A stretch of 54,136 nucleotides of DNA from Planctomycetaceae bacterium (GTDB lineage: Bacteria > Planctomycetota > Planctomycetia > Pirellulales > UBA1268). The translations under genes and the position numbers were made by a program. The stretch spans positions 1 through 54,136 of the forward strand of contig JAJTED010000001.1 in assembly GCA_021300535.1 (NCBI GenBank), read 5' to 3'. Below are positions 7,464 to 54,136 of this stretch, piece by piece. Position 1 is the stretch's first letter; each line of letters opens with the position of its first letter. The notes beneath the pieces were generated by a model. It was not told the DNA's origin. It worked only from the letters and a program-made list of their open reading frames with translations, and ran no database searches.

Positions 7464-9481
7464 CATTCCTTCAGCCGCTGATGCTCGCCGCGCTGCCGCT
7501 GGTGAGCCTGCCGATCATCATCCATCTCATCAACCAGCGCCGGTTCCAGACCGTGCAGTGGGCGGCGATGATGTTCCTGCTCTCGGCGCGGGCCATGTCA
7601 CGGGGATACTCGCGACTGCGGAACTGGCTGATCATGGCGATGCGGATGCTCGCCGTGGCGGCGGTGATCTTCGCGATCGGTCGGCCGCTGTCGCGCGGCT
7701 GGCTGGCGCTCGCCGGCGGCGCCCGCCCCGACACGGCGATCGTGGTCCTCGACCGCTCGCCGTCGATGCAGCAGCGGAGCGCGGCGGCCGCCGATACGAA
7801 GCTCGACACGGGCCGCCGGCAGCTCGTCGAGTCGCTGGCCACGCTCGGGGCTTCGCGGTGCGTGCTCGTCACCGACCCGGCGGTGAAGCCGCTGGAACTC
7901 GCGAGCCCGGCGGCACTGGCCGACCTGCCGGCTGCCGGTCCCGCGGCCGTGCCGGCCGACCTGCCGTTGTTGCTGCAGGCCGCCTACGACTACGTGAAGG
8001 AAAATGCCGCCGGAGCCACGGAGGTGTGGATCTGCTCCGACCAGCGGTCCAACGATTGGGCGCCGGAGAACGGGGCCTGGGGAGGGATTCGTGATGCGTT
8101 CACCAAGCTGCCGCAGCAGGTGCGGTTCCAGTTGCTCTCCTTCCGGGAACCGGCGGAGGGCAACATGGCGGTGCGGGTCACGGACACCAAACTCGAGAAG
8201 CGCGGCGACATCCGGGCTCTGGTGGTCACCGTGGCGGCGACGAGGCAGGAGGATGGCGAGCGGGTCGTGCTGCCGGTGACCTTTGAGATCGGCGGCGTGT
8301 CCTCGACGGTGCAGCTCGAGCTCACCGGCCGGGAGGCGGTGCTCAAGAACCACGTCATTCCCCTCGACCGCGCGGCTGGAAGCCGCGGCTGGGGCAAAGT
8401 GTCGATTCCGGCCGATGCGAACATCGCCGACAACGAGTTCTACTTCGTGTTCGACGAGCCGGTGGCCCGCAAGACGGTCGTCGTCGCGGAGGATCCGGCC
8501 GCGCGACGCTGGCTCGCGCTGCTGGCGGAGATCCCGCCGGAGAAGGACCAGCGGTCGGCCGCCGAGGCCGTCGCTCCCGAAGCCTTCGTGACCACGGCGC
8601 TCGACGAGACGGCGCTCGTGCTCTGGCAGGGGCAGTTTCCCGCCGGCCGGGATGCGGAGGCACTGACGGCGTTCCTGGCTCGCGGTGGCCAGGTCGTATT
8701 CTTTCCGCCTGATGTGCCCACGGAGACGACGTTCGCCGGGCTGACCTGGCGGTCTTGGGCGAACCATCCGCAGCCCGTGAAGCCCGTCTCGTGGCGGACC
8801 GATCAGGACCTGCTCTCCAATACCTTGGCCGGCGGCGCGCTGCCCGTCGGCGAAGTGCAGGTGTTCCGCTCCTGTGCGTTCGCCGGCGACCACGTGCCGC
8901 TGGCGTCGCTGCCGGAGGCGGCGCCTCTCCTGGCTCGCGTCGCCGACACTGCCGGCGGTGTCTATGTCTGCACCACGACGCCCAACGGCCGCGACTCCGC
9001 GCTCGCCAGCGAGGGAGTGGTACTGTACGCGATCGTGCAGCGGGCCATCGATCGGGGGGTGGCCGTGCTCGGCAAGTCCCGGCAGGTGGATGCCGGCCCG
9101 GCGGCCGAGGTGCTCACCGCGAAGGGCATCGAGTGGAGCCGGCTGGCCGGACCCGCCGACGTGCTGTCCACGGAAATCGGCCGGCACGCCGGTGTGTTTG
9201 CCGCGGACGATCGCCTCGTCGCCGTCAATCGGCCGGCGGAGGAAGACGCGGGCCGCATCGCGGCGGATGACCGAATCGACGGCCTGTTTCGTGACCTCTC
9301 GTACACCCGGCTCACCGGCACGGCCGGCAGCACGGACAGCCTCGTGCAGGAGATTTGGCGGGCGTTCCTGATTGCGATGGTGCTGGCGCTGATCGTAGAG
9401 GGACTGCTCTGCCTGCCCAAGTCGGCCGGCGCGGAGCGGTCGCCATTCGAGGGGCTGCGGCCCGTGGAGGCGGCGGCATGA
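7460..9481 (+). CDS. BatA-type membrane VWA protein
   Basis: A 673-residue membrane protein. The N-terminus matches the BatA/aerotolerance-type region: FLQPLMLAALPLVSLPIIIHLINQRRF, an early membrane helix followed by the characteristic LIHLINRR-like motif, then a second helix near residues 55-75. A VWA domain follows with DRSPSM at 98-103 (MIDAS-like DxSxS). The middle is a long periplasmic beta-rich part, and a last helix lies near 628-650. This family acts with MoxR in the envelope. The start overlaps the DUF58 stop, and the stop overlaps the next start (ATGA at 9478-9481). Confidence 0.88.
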   Translation: MTFLQPLMLAALPLVSLPIIIHLINQRRFQTVQWAAMMFLLSARAMSRGYSRLRNWLIMAMRMLAVAAVIFAIGRPLSRGWLALAGGARPDTAIVVLDRSPSMQQRSAAAADTKLDTGRRQLVESLATLGASRCVLVTDPAVKPLELASPAALADLPAAGPAAVPADLPLLLQAAYDYVKENAAGATEVWICSDQRSNDWAPENGAWGGIRDAFTKLPQQVRFQLLSFREPAEGNMAVRVTDTKLEKRGDIRALVVTVAATRQEDGERVVLPVTFEIGGVSSTVQLELTGREAVLKNHVIPLDRAAGSRGWGKVSIPADANIADNEFYFVFDEPVARKTVVVAEDPAARRWLALLAEIPPEKDQRSAAEAVAPEAFVTTALDETALVLWQGQFPAGRDAEALTAFLARGGQVVFFPPDVPTETTFAGLTWRSWANHPQPVKPVSWRTDQDLLSNTLAGGALPVGEVQVFRSCAFAGDHVPLASLPEAAPLLARVADTAGGVYVCTTTPNGRDSALASEGVVLYAIVQRAIDRGVAVLGKSRQVDAGPAAEVLTAKGIEWSRLAGPADVLSTEIGRHAGVFAADDRLVAVNRPAEEDAGRIAADDRIDGLFRDLSYTRLTGTAGSTDSLVQEIWRAFLIAMVLALIVEGLLCLPKSAGAERSPFEGLRPVEAAA

Positions 9482-11688
9482 CCGAGTTTCAGGGGTTCCG
9501 CTTCTTCACCACGCCGTGGACGCTGGGGGTCTCGCTGGCGCTGATCGCGATCACCGCGGCGATCTGCGTGTTCGCGTGGAAGCGGAGCGGCTATGCGCCG
9601 GGCCAGGGGCTGCTGGAACTGCTGCGGCTGGCGATCGTGGGCCTGGTGGCGATCCTGCTCAACCAACCGGAGTGGGTGGAGGAATATCGGCCCGCCGACA
9701 AGCCGACGATCGCGGTCCTGCACGACGCCTCGCGGAGCATGGACACCCGCGACGTGGTGCTCAGCGGCACGGCCGCCCGGGCCGGCGGGCCGCAGACCCG
9801 CCGGGAGGCGATCGCCGAACTGATCACCAGCGATTTTTGGAAGCCGCTCGCCGAGCGGTTCAACGTCGAGATCGCCGCCTTCTCGCCGGCACCCGATGCC
9901 GCCGGCACCGACTACGCCGCACCGCTGGGCACGGTCCTCGATCGGTTCGTGGGTCTGCGGAGCGTCGTGCTCGTCGGCGACGGTGATTGGAACGAGGGCC
10001 CGGCCCCCTCGACGGCCGCCCAGGCATTGCGGCTGGCGCAGGTGCCGGTGGTCGCGGTGGCCGTGGGCAGCGAGACCAAACTTCCCGACGTCGAGTTCGC
10101 CAGCCTCGACTGTCCGACCGTCGGCGTGGCCGGCAAGCCGGTCCGCGTGCCGTTCACGATTCATTCGTCGCTGTCCACGGAACGGGTCGTGGTCGTGGAC
10201 TTCAAAGCGTCAAACGGCGACGCGCTCCGCAAGGAGGTCCGCCTGCCGGCGATGGGCACGGCCACCGACTGGCTCTATTGGACGCCCCGGGACGTTGGCG
10301 ACTACACGGTCACGATCACGGTGCCGAAGCAGGACGGCGAACTGCTCGCCGACAACAACCAGCGGACCGCGCCGATCGCGGTGCGGCGAGAGCAGCTCAA
10401 GGTGCTCGTCGTGGAGAGCATTCCGCGTTGGGAATACCGCTACCTACGCAACGCCTTGTCCCGCGATCCGGGCGTCGATGTCACCTGCCTTCTGTTCCAG
10501 CCGGGGCTCTCCAAGCGCGGCGGCGGCAACAAGGACTACATCCAGAAGTTCCCCTCCGGGCTCGACGCGCTGTCGCAGTACGACGTCGTGTTCCTCGGCG
10601 ACGTGGGCGTGTCTCCGGACCAGCTCACCGAGGAGGACTGCCGGCTGCTCAAGGGGCTCGTCGAGTACCAGGCCAGCGGGCTGGTGTTCCTGCCCGGCTG
10701 GCGCGGGGAGCAGGCGTCGCTGATGGGCACGGCCCTGGAGGAGCTTTGTCCTGTGGTCCTCGACCCGGTCCGCAAGGAGGGCTTCAGCTCCGAAGGCCCG
10801 CGGAAGCTCGTGCTCACCGAGGTGGGCCGCAAGAGCCTGCTCACCAAGCTTGCCGACTCGGGCACCGAGAATCTCGCAGTCTGGGAAAGCCTGCCGGGCG
10901 TGCAGTGGTACGGGCCGGTGCTGCGGGCCAAGGCGGGCAGCGAGGTGCTGGCCGTCCACGAGGACGCGGGCAACGAGTACGGCCGGATTCCGCTCTTGAT
11001 CACCCGCACCTACGGCGCGGGCAAGGTGCTCTACATGGCGACCGACGGCGCCTGGCGGTGGCGGAAGGGCGTCGAGGATAAATACCACTACCGATTCTGG
11101 GGCCAGGTGGTCCGGTGGATGGCCTACCGCCGCAACATGGCCAAGGGGGAGCGGATGAGCCTGTCGTTCGCCCCGGAGCAGCCGCAGCTCGGGCAGGCGC
11201 TGGCACTCGACGCCCGGGTAGCGCAGGCCAACGGTGAGCCGCTGTCGCGCGGCGAGGTGGCCGCGCGGGTCAAGGCCCCGTCGGGCACGGTGGAGACGGT
11301 GCGGTTCGCGCCGCCGGCCGGCGAGGGCGAGTGGGGCGTGTTCGCCGCGAACCTCACGCCGCGCGAACCGGGCAAGCACGAGGTGACGCTCGTCTGCAAG
11401 GAGACCGGCGATACGCTCGAGGCGTCGTTCTTCGTCCAGGGTTCGACGGCCGAGGGCATCGGTCGGGCGGCCCGACCCGAGGTGCTCGCCGAGATCGCGC
11501 AGGTCACCAAGGGCAGGCTCGTGCCGCCGGGTGAGATTGCGTCGATTATCGAATCGCTTGCCAAACTGCCGGAGCCGCCGCCGAGCGTGCGGCGGCTGCA
11601 GCTGTGGTGCCATCCGGCGGCGGCGGGTGTGATCGTGGGATTGCTGGGGCTGTTTTGGGTGATGCGGAAGCGGCAGGGGCTTGTCTGA
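9478..11688 (+). CDS. VWA/glutamine-amidotransferase-fold membrane protein
   Basis: A 736-residue membrane protein, second VWA partner in the operon. It has helices at about residues 12-32 and 42-60, then a VWA-type region with LHDASRSMDT (Asp83, Ser85, Ser87). After a beta-sandwich region comes a class-I glutamine-amidotransferase-like Rossmann segment (KVLVVESIPRWEYRYLRNAL and YDVVFLGDVGVSPDQLT). A C-terminal helix near 712-732 ends in basic residues. This is the usual companion of BatA in planctomycete MoxR operons. The amidotransferase-like part shows no obvious catalytic Cys, so it is probably structural. No enzymatic role is claimed. Confidence 0.85.
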   Translation: MTEFQGFRFFTTPWTLGVSLALIAITAAICVFAWKRSGYAPGQGLLELLRLAIVGLVAILLNQPEWVEEYRPADKPTIAVLHDASRSMDTRDVVLSGTAARAGGPQTRREAIAELITSDFWKPLAERFNVEIAAFSPAPDAAGTDYAAPLGTVLDRFVGLRSVVLVGDGDWNEGPAPSTAAQALRLAQVPVVAVAVGSETKLPDVEFASLDCPTVGVAGKPVRVPFTIHSSLSTERVVVVDFKASNGDALRKEVRLPAMGTATDWLYWTPRDVGDYTVTITVPKQDGELLADNNQRTAPIAVRREQLKVLVVESIPRWEYRYLRNALSRDPGVDVTCLLFQPGLSKRGGGNKDYIQKFPSGLDALSQYDVVFLGDVGVSPDQLTEEDCRLLKGLVEYQASGLVFLPGWRGEQASLMGTALEELCPVVLDPVRKEGFSSEGPRKLVLTEVGRKSLLTKLADSGTENLAVWESLPGVQWYGPVLRAKAGSEVLAVHEDAGNEYGRIPLLITRTYGAGKVLYMATDGAWRWRKGVEDKYHYRFWGQVVRWMAYRRNMAKGERMSLSFAPEQPQLGQALALDARVAQANGEPLSRGEVAARVKAPSGTVETVRFAPPAGEGEWGVFAANLTPREPGKHEVTLVCKETGDTLEASFFVQGSTAEGIGRAARPEVLAEIAQVTKGRLVPPGEIASIIESLAKLPEPPPSVRRLQLWCHPAAAGVIVGLLGLFWVMRKRQGLV

Positions 11689-11711: not shown

Positions 11712-15484
<3,773 letters not shown>

Positions 15485-24290: not shown

Positions 24291-24294
24291 GCCT

Positions 24295-24394
24295 GGAGCG
24301 GCAGTGGCTGTGTGTCGGCAAAACATCGCATCGTGCGATTTTTGCCTGGCGGGCCTCCGCCCGCTGGTGTCAACCCGGCCATCCTGGCCTGACC
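24295..24394 (+). repeat. Hairpin repeat family 2, copy 1
   Basis: A 100-base unit with three hairpins: ATCGCA-TCG-TGCGAT followed by a T-run, GCGGGC-CTCC-GCCCGC, and GGCCA-TCC-TGGCC. It is repeated almost exactly 123 bases downstream. The first hairpin plus TTTTT looks like an intrinsic terminator for the upstream operon. Confidence 0.8.
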
Positions 24395-24417
24395 TCGGGA
24401 GCAGTATGCGTCCTTTT

Positions 24418-24517
24418 GGAGCGGCAGTGGCTGTGTGTCGTCAAAACATCGCATCGTGCGATTTTTGCCTGGCGGGCCTCCGCCCGCTGGTGTCAACCCG
24501 GCCATCCTGGCCTGACC
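24418..24517 (+). repeat. Hairpin repeat family 2, copy 2
   Basis: A direct copy of the unit at 24295-24394, with one obvious substitution (GTCGTC for GTCGGC). It has the same three hairpins and T-run. The two copies are separated by 23 unrelated bases. Confidence 0.85.
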
Positions 24518-24520
24518 ACC

Positions 24521-24600
24521 GCAGTGATCTCTGTCCGTCGTGCCCAGTTGCCGGGAAGCCTGAAGCGTGAGCTGAGCGAATACGCGGCGGTTCGCCTGCG
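24521..24600 (+). repeat. Dispersed repeat family 3, copy 1
   Basis: The core at 24546-24586 (starting AGTTGCCGGGAAGCCTGAAG) matches 30575-30615 at 35 of 41 positions. Similarity extends weakly some 25 bases upstream on both copies. No coding function is apparent. Confidence 0.6.
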
Positions 24601-24680
24601 GCCATCCTCATTCCCTTGGCTTGCGCCTTCTGCTGTTGCGCGTTCTCCAGTCATGCGCTCGGCTTGACACGCGCGAACGG

Positions 24681-25200
24681 CACAAAAAGCCCCCGGCGGG
24701 AGCCGGGGGACTCCGGGTGGCATGCCTTCCCGTGTGCCATGCGATGTGGGTTTGAACCGGGCAATTGCGTGCGGTCATCCGGCATGGACTGCGGGGTGGT
24801 GTTCATACCCGGTGTCCCCGGGTTTCCACCCGGGGCTTCTTGGAACGCGTGTCGCTTCCACAAAAAGCCCCCGGCAGGAGCCGGGGGACTCCGGGTCGCA
24901 TGCCTTCCCGGGTGCCATGCGATGTGGGTTTGAACCGGGCAATTGCGTGCGGTCATCCGGCATGGACTGCGGGGTGGTGTTCATACCCGGTGTCCCCGGG
25001 TTTCCACCCGGGGCGTTCTTGGAACGCGTGTCGCTTCCACAAAAAGCCCCCGGCAGGAGCCGGGGGACTCCGGGTGGCATGCCTTCCCGTGTGCCATGCG
25101 ATGTGGGTTTGAACCGGGCAATTGCGTGCGGTCATCCGGCATGGACGGCGGGGTGGTGTTCATACCCGGTGTCCCCGGGTTTCCACCCGGGGCTTTTTGT
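24681..25200 (+). repeat. Three tandem copies of a 178-179 bp repeat (family 1)
   Basis: Copies begin at 24681, 24859 and 25038, each with CACAAAAAG. Each holds a GC hairpin (CCCCCGGC, loop GGGA or AGGA, GCCGGGGG) read as a terminator on the minus strand. A core follows with GCCATGCG and CGGCATGG at its ends, and then a second hairpin (CCCCGGGT-TTCC-ACCCGGGG; in copy 1 at 24816-24835) followed by CTTCTT or CTTTTTG on the plus strand. The copies are nearly identical to one another. They are not CRISPR: there are no variable spacers. Confidence 0.9.
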
Positions 25201-25448
25201 GTGGGCGCCAGGCCCGGAGGGCCGGGTTGATTCCAAGCGGGCGGCGGCCCGCCAAGCGAACCGCGGCACGATGCCGCGTATTCGCGTGGATCATGCTCCC
25301 GGGTTTCCACCCGGGGCTTCTTGTGTGGGTGCCAGGCCCGGAGGGCCGGGTTGATTCCAAGCGGGCGGCGGCCCGCCAAGCGAACCGCGGCACGATGCCG
25401 CGTGTTCGCGTGGATCATGCTCCCGGGTTTCCACCTGGGGCTTCTTGG
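25201..25448 (-). repeat. Two tandem 124-bp copies of family 2, inverted
   Basis: Units begin at 25201 and 25325. Read on the minus strand they align with the units at 24295 and 24418: CGCGGCATCGTGCCGCG opposite the ATCGCA-TCG-TGCGAT stem, GCGGGC-CGCC-GCCCGC, AATCAACCCGGCC opposite GTCAACCCGGCC, and GGCCC-TCC-GGGCC opposite GGCCA-TCC-TGGCC. The stems differ by paired changes that keep them base-paired. Each plus-strand unit ends with the CCCGGGTTTCCACCCGGGG hairpin also used in family 1; the second has one mismatch. Confidence 0.8.
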
Positions 25449-49958: not shown

Positions 49959-51407
49959 TCAGCCCTGCGGCTTGGCCGGCCCGATCGGCGGCGGGAAGTC
50001 CGTGGCGGCCCGCGGTTCGGGCTTTTCCAAGCGGTAGACCGCCCCCTCCGTCCGCAGATAGATGGCCCGGCCGACCGCCGCCGGCGTGGCGAAGATGCCG
50101 CCTTCGAGTTCGTTGGTGGCGAGGACCTCGGCCTGCGGTCCGGGGCGGAGGACATACGTCTTCCCTTCCCGGCTGCCCACGTAGATCCGGCCGTCGGCGA
50201 ACAGCGGCGACGAGGAAAAGTTGCCCGCCAGCCGCTCGGCCCACACCGGCTTGCCCGTCCGCGCGTCGAGGCAGGTGGCGATTCCCTTCTCACTGATCAT
50301 GTAGAACTCGTCGCCCACGACCAGGGGCGACGGCATCGTGGGCGCGGCCTTCTTCTCACGCCACGCGATCTCGGGCGCCGCCGTGCCGGTGTCGAGCCGC
50401 AGCGCCAAAATTTCCGGCTGCATGAAGGACGTGCTCATGAACAGCAGGCCATGGGCGAAGACCGGCCGGGGCACGATCGAGAAGCCGAGGCCGCCGTAGG
50501 ACTGCTTCCACAGCTCCGTGCCCGTCGCGGGGTCGTAGCCGTAGAGCCAGTCGGCGGCCGGCGAGACGACGACGTCGCGGCCACCGAGCGGCAGGATGAG
50601 CGGCGTGCCGTAGGCCTTCTTGAGCTGCGGATCGGCGCGGAGCGCGCCGCTGCGAGGCGTCTTCCAGGCGACCGCGCCGGTCGCGGCGTCGAAGGCGGCG
50701 ATGGCCTGCGTGTCGCTACCGTCGACGTGGACGATGAGCCGGTCTTTCCAGAGCACGGGCGTGCTGCCCGGGCCGTTCTCGTGGTTGAGCCGCAGTGCGC
50801 GGCTCGTCCACACGACCCGCGCGGTCTCGGTGTCGAGGCAGGCGGTGCCGAAGTCGCCGAAGTGGCAATACAGCCGGTTGCCGGCGAGCACCGGCGACGG
50901 CGAGGCGAAGGAGTTGAGGGCGTGGATCGGCTGCGGTTCGGCCACCGCGAGAAGCTCCACGTCGTGCACGAGCCGGCCCGACTCCGCGTCCACGCCGAGG
51001 GCCCGCAGGCTCACCGGTCCGGAGACGGTGAGCGGCTGGTTGCCTGTGTTGCCTTCCAGTCGGCGCTTGCGATCGTCCTCCGGGACCGGCTTCTCCACGG
51101 CCGTGGTCATCCACACCAGGCCGCCGCCGATCACCGGCGACGACCAGCCACGGCCCGGCAGCGGTGTTTTCCAGCGGACGTTTTCCTGCTCGCTCCAGGT
51201 GACCGGCAGGTCGTGGGCCGCGGCGGCGTGCCCCTGTCCATCCGGACCGCGCCACTGCGGCCACGGCTCGGCGGCCACCGCCACATGGGCCGCGACGGCG
51301 ACGCAGGCCGCAGTCACGAGGCCCAAGGTGGAGCGGAAGGTGGAGCGGAAGGTGGAGCGGAAGGTGGAGCGGAAGGTGGAGCGGAAGGTGGAGCGGAAGG
51401 TGGCCAT
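49959..51407 (-). CDS. Exported PQQ-like beta-propeller protein with a repetitive N-terminus
   Basis: A 482-residue protein. Residues 3-27 are six FRST-type repeats just before the hydrophobic signal core (LVTAACVAVAAHVAVAAE). The mature protein opens with PWPQWRGPDGQG and has blade repeats such as LYGYDPATGTELWKQSYGG, CLDARTGKPVWAERLAG and AFDAATGAVAWKTPRSG. The fold is the PQQ-like eight-bladed propeller of the alcohol-dehydrogenase/BamB type; binding or scaffolding is likely. The repeats in the n-region are unusual, since all copies fall inside the signal. It starts about 26 bases from the convergent chemoreceptor gene's 3' end, on the same strand. Confidence 0.85.
   Translation of the reverse strand: MATFRSTFRSTFRSTFRSTFRSTFRSTLGLVTAACVAVAAHVAVAAEPWPQWRGPDGQGHAAAAHDLPVTWSEQENVRWKTPLPGRGWSSPVIGGGLVWMTTAVEKPVPEDDRKRRLEGNTGNQPLTVSGPVSLRALGVDAESGRLVHDVELLAVAEPQPIHALNSFASPSPVLAGNRLYCHFGDFGTACLDTETARVVWTSRALRLNHENGPGSTPVLWKDRLIVHVDGSDTQAIAAFDAATGAVAWKTPRSGALRADPQLKKAYGTPLILPLGGRDVVVSPAADWLYGYDPATGTELWKQSYGGLGFSIVPRPVFAHGLLFMSTSFMQPEILALRLDTGTAAPEIAWREKKAAPTMPSPLVVGDEFYMISEKGIATCLDARTGKPVWAERLAGNFSSSPLFADGRIYVGSREGKTYVLRPGPQAEVLATNELEGGIFATPAAVGRAIYLRTEGAVYRLEKPEPRAATDFPPPIGPAKPQG
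51325..51396 (-). repeat. 12-bp tandem repeat in the signal peptide region
   Basis: Six exact copies of AAGGTGGAGCGG on the plus strand, with a partial seventh. On the coding strand each adds Phe-Arg-Ser-Thr to the n-region of the PQQ protein's signal peptide. The period keeps the frame, so copy number can vary without breaking the gene. Confidence 0.95.
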
Positions 51408-51432: not shown

Positions 51433-52857
51433 TCACGAGGATACCAGACTGCCTCGTGCCGCTCCCGGAGCCGCCTCCCGCCGCCGGGCCGCCGCGACGT
51501 CCCGGCGGCCTGTTCCCACCGCCCGCTCGAGGGCCGCCACGACGTCGCGGAGCGCCCCGGCCTGGGCCGTCAGTTCGTCGGCCGCCGCAGATCCCTCCTC
51601 CGCACCGGCCGCCGCGTGCTGGGTGACGTCCTCGATCTGCTCCAGCGCCGTGCCGATCCGCTCCAGGGCCCGCAGTTGCTCACGACTGCCGAGCTGCACG
51701 TCGTCGACGAGCGTGCGCACACCCGAGGATTGCTCGGCGAGGGAGCGGATCGCCGTCGCCACGTCGTCCACCTTCTTCTTGCCCGAGTGCGACCGGGTGA
51801 TCGACTCCTCGATGAGCTCCGCGGTCTCGCGGGCCGCCCCGGCGTGGAAGGCGATCTCGTCGATGACCTTGATGATCCGCGAAATCCGCCCCGCTGCAGT
51901 GTCGATGTCATCCATGGCGGTCACCATCTCGCCGAGCAACAAGCCGGCACCACGAAACTGATCCTGTTCACGACCGACCAGTTCGCCGGCGGCACTCGTC
52001 TTCTGGGCGTTGACCGTCGCCATGGCGCTCGACTCGCGGGCCGAAGCCGCGATGTCTTCCACCGCCGCCACCTGTTCCGACGCCCCTTCGGCGAGCGCGC
52101 GGCTCGCCGAGGCGACCTGCGCCGCGCCGCTGGCCACGTACTCCGACGTGCTCGACAGGTCTTCGATGGCCCGCCGCAGGCTGCGAGCATGGCGGCGGAT
52201 GCTCAGCCAGGCAATGACCGCCGAGAGGGCCGCGAGGCCGATCACGAGCAGCATGAGCCGGTCGCCGCGAGCCTGCGCGGTCAACACGGCGGCTTCCGTG
52301 CGGCGATCGAGCAGGTCCTCGAAATCACCGATCGGATCCATGATCGACATCTTGTCGGCATGATACTTCTCGTCGTGCATGATCCGCCGGGCCAGTTCGC
52401 CATCGGGCTCGCCCTGCCGCGTGTAGCCCCCCTTCCCGTCGGCGAACTCCCCTTTGATCGCATGCATGGCGACCGTCTCGGTGTGCACCAGCGCGTTGGA
52501 GTTGTCCTCGGCCTGCCTGAGCTTCGCGAACTCGTCGGCGGTGAATCCCTGCTGCTCCATCAGCCGCCGGAGGGGCACGGTGCGGCCGTCTGGCCGCGGT
52601 TTCACGCCGTTGCGGACGTCGAGGATCCGCCAGTAGGCCTGTTCGTAGGCCGGATCACCCGTGACCACGTAGGTGCGGGCCATCCGTGTCAGTTCGTCGG
52701 AACTGGCCCGCAGCTCCTGGGCGAGCCGGTACGACTCGTAGCGGTTCGTGTGCGCCCGCTGCAACGCGTTGTGATTCAAAAAAGCCAGCACCGACAGGCC
52801 CACGAGCCCGAAGACCGGACCCAGTGTCGTCACCTGAAGCCGCTGCAGCGTGTTCAT
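51433..52857 (-). CDS. Methyl-accepting chemotaxis protein lacking the signalling hairpin tip
   Basis: A 474-residue chemoreceptor. Helix 1 lies near residues 10-30 (GPVFGLVGLSVLAFLNH), a sensing region of about 170 residues follows, helix 2 lies near 201-220 (LMLLVIGLAALSAVIAWLSI) and a coiled-coil signalling domain follows. In typical receptors VIDEIAF is followed by about 35 highly conserved residues forming the hairpin tip that binds CheA and CheW. Here F337-H338 runs directly into AGAARETAELIEESI, which is normally beyond the tip. The frame stays open. The protein should not signal. The other half of the coiled coil is present. cheA is divergent, 235 bases away. Confidence 0.8.
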   Translation of the reverse strand: MNTLQRLQVTTLGPVFGLVGLSVLAFLNHNALQRAHTNRYESYRLAQELRASSDELTRMARTYVVTGDPAYEQAYWRILDVRNGVKPRPDGRTVPLRRLMEQQGFTADEFAKLRQAEDNSNALVHTETVAMHAIKGEFADGKGGYTRQGEPDGELARRIMHDEKYHADKMSIMDPIGDFEDLLDRRTEAAVLTAQARGDRLMLLVIGLAALSAVIAWLSIRRHARSLRRAIEDLSSTSEYVASGAAQVASASRALAEGASEQVAAVEDIAASARESSAMATVNAQKTSAAGELVGREQDQFRGAGLLLGEMVTAMDDIDTAAGRISRIIKVIDEIAFHAGAARETAELIEESITRSHSGKKKVDDVATAIRSLAEQSSGVRTLVDDVQLGSREQLRALERIGTALEQIEDVTQHAAAGAEEGSAAADELTAQAGALRDVVAALERAVGTGRRDVAAARRREAAPGAARGSLVSS

Positions 52858-53091: not shown

Positions 53092-54136
53092 ATGACCGCC
53101 GATCCCGCCGCCGTGACGGCCGCAAGCCATCTGCTCCAGCAGATCGCCCTCGAACTCGCCTTCGTGGACCCGCGCGGCACGAGCGATGCCGCCGCCCTGC
53201 GCGAGCTGGTCCGGCAGCTCGGCGACGCCCTCGACGCGGCCGAGCCAACGCTCGCCGACGCGGCGCGGCGCGTCCTCGGGTGGTTGGGCGATGCGCCGCG
53301 GCTCGCCCCCGACGTCGTCGCGCGGTGCAACGCCTGGCAGCCGTGGATGGTGGAGGCCGTCACCGCCTGGGGCCGCGACCGCCCACTGCCGCCGCCACCG
53401 CCGTCGGCCATCGCGACCGTGAGCCGGCCCACCCCGCCCGCCGGGGGCGAGCCGGTGCAGATTCTCGCGCCCGGCCACGATCCCGAGATGATGCGGATGT
53501 TCTGCGACGATGCCGGCGACCTGCTGCGCGACGTCGAGCAGGGCGTGCTCGTGCTCGAGACCAGGCCGGACGACCGCGAGACGCTGGCCACGGTGTTTCG
53601 CGCGTTCCACACGTTCAAAGGCAACGCCGGCCTGCTGAAGCTGGCGGCCCCGCAGCGGCTCGCGCACGAACTGGAGTCGCTGCTCGACGCCGCCCGCCAG
53701 GGAATGGTGTCACTCGACCGCGACGCCATCGACGTGATCCTGGCCGGCGCCGACGCGTTCGCGCGGTTCGTCTCCGAGGCGACAGCCCAGCTCGACGGCA
53801 TCGAGACCGGCCGCACGCTCCTGCTGCCGATCAACGCCGTCGTGGAGCAGGTCCGCAACCTGCTGGCCCGCGCTTCGCAGGGGACGGCACCGGCTTCCGC
53901 CGCGGTCCCGGCGCCAGTGACGGCCGCATCAGCGGCCGCTGAGCCGGCGGCGCCGTCGAACGCCGCGGAGATGGCGTCGGACCGGGCCGAGCCGGTCGCC
54001 GCGCCGGGGTTGAGGCCGGCCGCGCCGCGTGCGGCGTCCGCCGCCGGCAGTGTCCGCGTGGACACCGCGAAGCTCGACGGGCTCGTCGATCTCGTGGGCG
54101 AGCTGGTGATCGCGCAGTCGATGGTGGTGCAGCATG
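53092..54136 (+). CDS. cheA: Chemotaxis histidine kinase CheA, N-terminal part
   Basis: 348 codons are visible before the window ends. ATG 53092 opens an N-terminal part of about 115 residues with no recognisable motif, then a Hpt domain near residues 130-230 with the phosphorylation site FRAFHTFKGNAGLL (His173). An Ala/Pro-rich linker follows and the beginning of the CheA dimerisation segment (VRVDTAKLDGLVDLVGELVI) lies just before the edge. CheA autophosphorylates the Hpt His and passes phosphate to CheY. The Hpt domain is usually at the very N-terminus; here it is preceded by extra sequence that may be a degenerate Hpt. The kinase domain lies outside the window. Confidence 0.88.
   Translation, partial: MTADPAAVTAASHLLQQIALELAFVDPRGTSDAAALRELVRQLGDALDAAEPTLADAARRVLGWLGDAPRLAPDVVARCNAWQPWMVEAVTAWGRDRPLPPPPPSAIATVSRPTPPAGGEPVQILAPGHDPEMMRMFCDDAGDLLRDVEQGVLVLETRPDDRETLATVFRAFHTFKGNAGLLKLAAPQRLAHELESLLDAARQGMVSLDRDAIDVILAGADAFARFVSEATAQLDGIETGRTLLLPINAVVEQVRNLLARASQGTAPASAAVPAPVTAASAAAEPAAPSNAAEMASDRAEPVAAPGLRPAAPRAASAAGSVRVDTAKLDGLVDLVGELVIAQSMVVQH

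Follow-up and report, generated by a model that had tools for sequence, protein, structure and literature searches.

A private in-frame deletion of the hairpin tip in a planctomycete che-cluster chemoreceptor gene

Does a chemoreceptor gene that lacks the part contacting the kinase reflect the cell it came from, or the assembly of its genome? The question is raised by a gene in a 54,136-nt stretch of DNA from a Planctomycetaceae bacterium (hereafter the window), which makes up contig C95 in full. The draft genome it belongs to has 4.01 Mb in 197 contigs and is 86.4% complete. Two published accounts describe the hairpin tip of chemoreceptors as binding CheA P5 and CheW and as making trimer contacts (PMC5706961, PMC4692393).

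The receptor gene and its gap

The gene and the elements that define the gap are as follows.

51433–52857, minus strand: chemoreceptor (MCP) gene, 474 aa, tip-less; open ORF, Pfam MCPsignal match, homologues at 53–76% identity in genus and family
51847–52182, minus strand: N-terminal signalling arm, residues 226–337, intact by alignment and identities
51844–51846, minus strand: junction codon CAC (His338), with the break between 51844 and 51845 as placed by alignment with 23 homologues
51538–51837, minus strand: C-terminal signalling arm, residues 341–440, intact by alignment and identities

The initial annotation had described a receptor whose tip is lost while the frame stays open, and both the 474-aa ORF and the alignment with 23 homologues bear this out. 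Its estimate of about 35 residues was close but not exact: the alignment shows that precisely 36 residues (108 nt) are absent in frame, the gap opening with the residue that follows IDEIAF and closing with the one that precedes AxAARET. The post-tip residues had also been said to follow VIDEIAF directly; the two stretches are indeed neighbours, but a single His intervenes, the receptor reading KVIDEIAF-H-AGAARETAELIEESI. The 21-mer spanning the junction is found a single time in the window, against an expectation of 0, and a chance alignment as the source of the 36-residue gap is excluded.

The whole protein scored 44.3 bits against Pfam MCPsignal (PF00015), above the cut-off of 34.6, with only profile positions 17–48 and 104–172 of 172 covered; the orthologue L010 scored 135.4 bits over positions 12–172. 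The window receptor shares with PF00015 MCPs both arms of the signalling hairpin, a score above the Pfam cut-off and adjacency to cheA, whereas the conserved 36-residue tip that contacts the kinase and CheW is theirs and is absent here. Judged from its sequence, it belongs to the MCP signalling domain family by descent rather than as a demonstrated functional member.

The che cluster and the tip in relatives

Two further features place the gene in its neighbourhood.

53092–54136, plus strand: N-terminal part of cheA (Hpt and start of the dimerization domain; Pfam Hpt and H-kinase_dim), truncated by the contig end
54054–54136, no strand assigned: exact 83-bp match to the terminus of contig C148, lying within cheA and marking an assembly break in a conserved motif

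Receptor and cheA diverge in the window, and cheA continues on C148, which carries the CheA C-terminus, CheW, a second receptor with an intact tip, CheR and CheB. The gene lies next to cheA, with cheW, cheR and cheB, and represents the usual chemoreceptor orthologue found in a CheA-CheW-MCP-CheR-CheB cluster. The receptor-cheA pair was conserved in each of the six relatives whose retrieved cluster region includes cheA, in divergent orientation in five (L061, L062, L064, L066 and L067) and in the same direction in L063. At this last locus (positions 7571–11253, genome G009) the longest ORFs of the two genes overlap by 4 bases, and genes homologous to the ATPase and MiaE genes of the window (44.6–47.2 kb) adjoin the pair. 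Elsewhere in the window's own genome, a receptor cyclase on contig C28 (L060:1600–3162) has a related sensor region, 31–43% identical to that of the window receptor, but its output is HAMP plus guanylate cyclase instead of a chemoreceptor hairpin; a related sensor region is thus used for two kinds of output.

A comparison with orthologues had been proposed as a check on the initial annotation. The tip segment was present in 23 of 23 aligned homologues and absent only from the window receptor. Fifteen of these are same-genus orthologues, from 15 of the 21 sister genomes, and eight are others: four family genomes at 53–61% identity, two family members at 32–34%, L041 and L044. The distant matches L047 and L048 were excluded from the alignment, and the homology search found no orthologue of comparable grade in the remaining six sister genomes (G004, G005, G006, G013, G014 and G016). 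The records with L041, titled Gammaproteobacteria, and L044, titled Candidatus Kuenenia, contain close homologues of the planctomycete receptor and probably represent misnamed or mixed bins. The orthologues in G010 (L010), G021 (L009) and G002 (L011) match the window receptor in the order of all remaining parts, at 74–76% identity, and those in G021 and G002 also share its divergent cheA; unlike it, all three keep the tip.

The segment had been called the most conserved part of all chemoreceptors. It is highly conserved in this protein, with 26 of its 36 positions invariant in the 23 homologues versus 66 of 460 elsewhere, but it does not rank first in the alignment: it is the 15th of 461 windows of 36 residues and the 57th of 1381 windows of 108 nt, and the best conserved window begins 6 residues upstream of the deletion.

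Within the window's genome, the tip is intact in the other five receptors. No second, intact copy of the gene was found there; a search with the whole protein matched only C95 itself, the C28 cyclase and the second receptor on C148. A genus-wide Pfam survey gave 109 match rows, corresponding to 108 domain loci in 22 genomes. Among these, the window gene alone has a tip interrupted inside a contig (0 of the 107 others), the remaining loci being judged by their unbroken profile spans. In the sister draft G007, two receptor genes are truncated within the tip, one by a contig end (C209) and the other by a contig start (C130). Two loci were cut behind the tip, one in G013 by a contig end and one in G007 by a run of N, which may be a scaffold gap or masking. 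Phylum-wide, 7 of 294 genomes contained the junction pattern, which fell in a receptor only in that of the window; the test is a weak one, the intact-tip pattern having matched only 15 of the 294 (19 rows, of which 12 looked like receptor tips on visual inspection). The viral contigs searched contained no relative of the receptor, and searches of the open-licence literature listed no natural tip-less receptor, judging by titles and abstract openings. Alexander and Zhulin reportedly surveyed receptor heptad classes in 2007.

Collectively, these results describe an ordinary receptor of a che cluster with a private deletion of its tip, and no new receptor class. The suggestion that the protein might have another task found no support: the loss recurs in none of the homologues, the gene neighbours cheA just as its counterparts in relatives do, and no new sequence takes the place of the tip.

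Origin of the gap

We slightly prefer an assembly error as the cause of the 108-bp deletion, to which we give a probability of roughly one-half; the choice between error and a recent real loss is nearly balanced. The private, in-frame removal of the kinase-contacting tip in one draft would, on this preferred reading, be slightly more likely to stem from a local mistake in a metagenome assembly built from short reads and scaffolded. The tip is probably the stretch most shared among the receptors of related organisms, and contigs of G007 end there; two flanking pieces may have been joined with the middle left out, in which case the gap would be a product of that join rather than of the cell. The lean towards error rests on the restriction of the deletion to a single scaffolded draft, the tip being retained in 23 of 23 homologues, on its position at a top-ranked conserved window, on the G007 contigs that break off within this tip and on the break of C95 itself, which stops 2.3 kb from the junction in a conserved cheA motif. 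It rests further on signs of scaffolding and on arms that show no relaxed selection. Specifically, among 105 contig ends we found five overlaps of 114 bp (one of a contig with itself) and others of 83, 64 and 37 bp, and four short N runs were present in 800,011 bases over 60 stretches of the assembly. We take the recurrent 114-bp overlaps and the short N runs to be the product of graph assembly plus scaffolding.

Several observations speak against an assembly error. The window contains no N bases, no direct repeat borders the gap in relatives, the reading frame is preserved, which has a 1 in 3 chance, and the placement beside L010 is consistent on both sides of the junction. In addition, the best conserved window starts 6 residues upstream of the gap, and no other local error is known in C95 from the 24 window frames scanned with Pfam. 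Of these 24 frames, some of them wrong-frame ORFs, fifteen gave a match; a domain split in two was seen only in the receptor, and two matches were partial (glutamine synthetase catalytic domain, 8–181 of 344; protein kinase, 1–204 of 263).

A real, recent deletion in the lineage, or in part of the population, is a serious though somewhat less probable explanation. It would leave a null membrane receptor with a shortened hairpin and no CheA or CheW binding, and the second receptor of the cluster would run CheA. Because of the established role of the tip, a receptor that had truly lost it would be unable to control CheA, as the initial annotation had also proposed, and should neither join arrays nor control the kinase. 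A real loss agrees with the blunt, in-frame junction and its lack of N, with flanks that share one nearest relative, with the intact state of all other gene parts and neighbours, and with the intact tip of the second receptor on C148. Against it stand the restriction of the deletion to one draft genome and the state of the arms. Most pairwise dN/dS values were inestimable because synonymous sites were saturated; we therefore counted changes on the tip branches, only at codons where the other three sequences agree. The ratio of non-synonymous to synonymous changes in the arms was 6:15 on the window branch versus 14:37 on the sister branches (P = 1.0), or 7:15 on the window branch with the junction codon included (P = 0.78), and 17:29 versus 29:80 over the whole gene (P = 0.25). 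These counts gave no sign of relaxed selection on the arms, and freedom from constraint for at least 25% of the branch was rejected (P = 0.04); a null deletion, if real, must therefore be recent.

It is improbable that a tip-less receptor has been selected, that is, one with a shorter hairpin that still senses and is methylated. Kept beside its own cheA but unable to drive the kinase, such a protein might be a decoy for ligand or for adaptation enzymes, might serve within the receptor array as a decoy or sink, or might signal to another partner. The purifying selection on the arms would fit, as would the AlphaFold2 model of the window receptor, a shorter hairpin with helices at 163–335 and 341–461 and a turn at 336–340. 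The intact relative is predicted to turn at about residue 353, and the deleted residues (338–373 or 339–374, depending on gap placement) lie almost symmetrically around that turn. Both models are single chains with pTM of 0.42 and 0.40, and so weak evidence, and confidence at the new turn is low (pLDDT 59 versus 85–91 at the tip of the intact relative). Moreover, no other example was seen among the 23 homologues or, as a tip gap inside a contig, among the 107 other genus loci, and the deletion brought no new sequence or partner.

A simple repeat collapse does not account for the gap, because no direct repeat flanks it in the relatives and the junction looks blunt; a join of two species at the tip is rejected, L010 being the nearest relative of both the left and the right part in four of four trees (local supports 0.603, 0.837, 0.823 and 0.813).

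If the deletion proved to be both real and selected, it would contradict the rule that, of all its parts, only the tip is indispensable to a chemoreceptor. On present evidence, the locus is mainly a warning that draft genomes can break where receptor genes present in several copies are most conserved; tip losses in single drafts therefore need read support.

Tandem repeats in the window

The window also contains several tandem repeats. A perfect 12-bp repeat of 6.6 copies (51325–51403) gives the neighbouring PQQ/BamB-like protein (49959–51407) an N-terminal (TFRS)n stretch. Three adjacent arrays with units of 123, 179 and 124 bp and 97–99% matches occupy positions 24294–25447, and a 15-bp repeat is present in 13.8 copies with 94% matches at 13676–13882.
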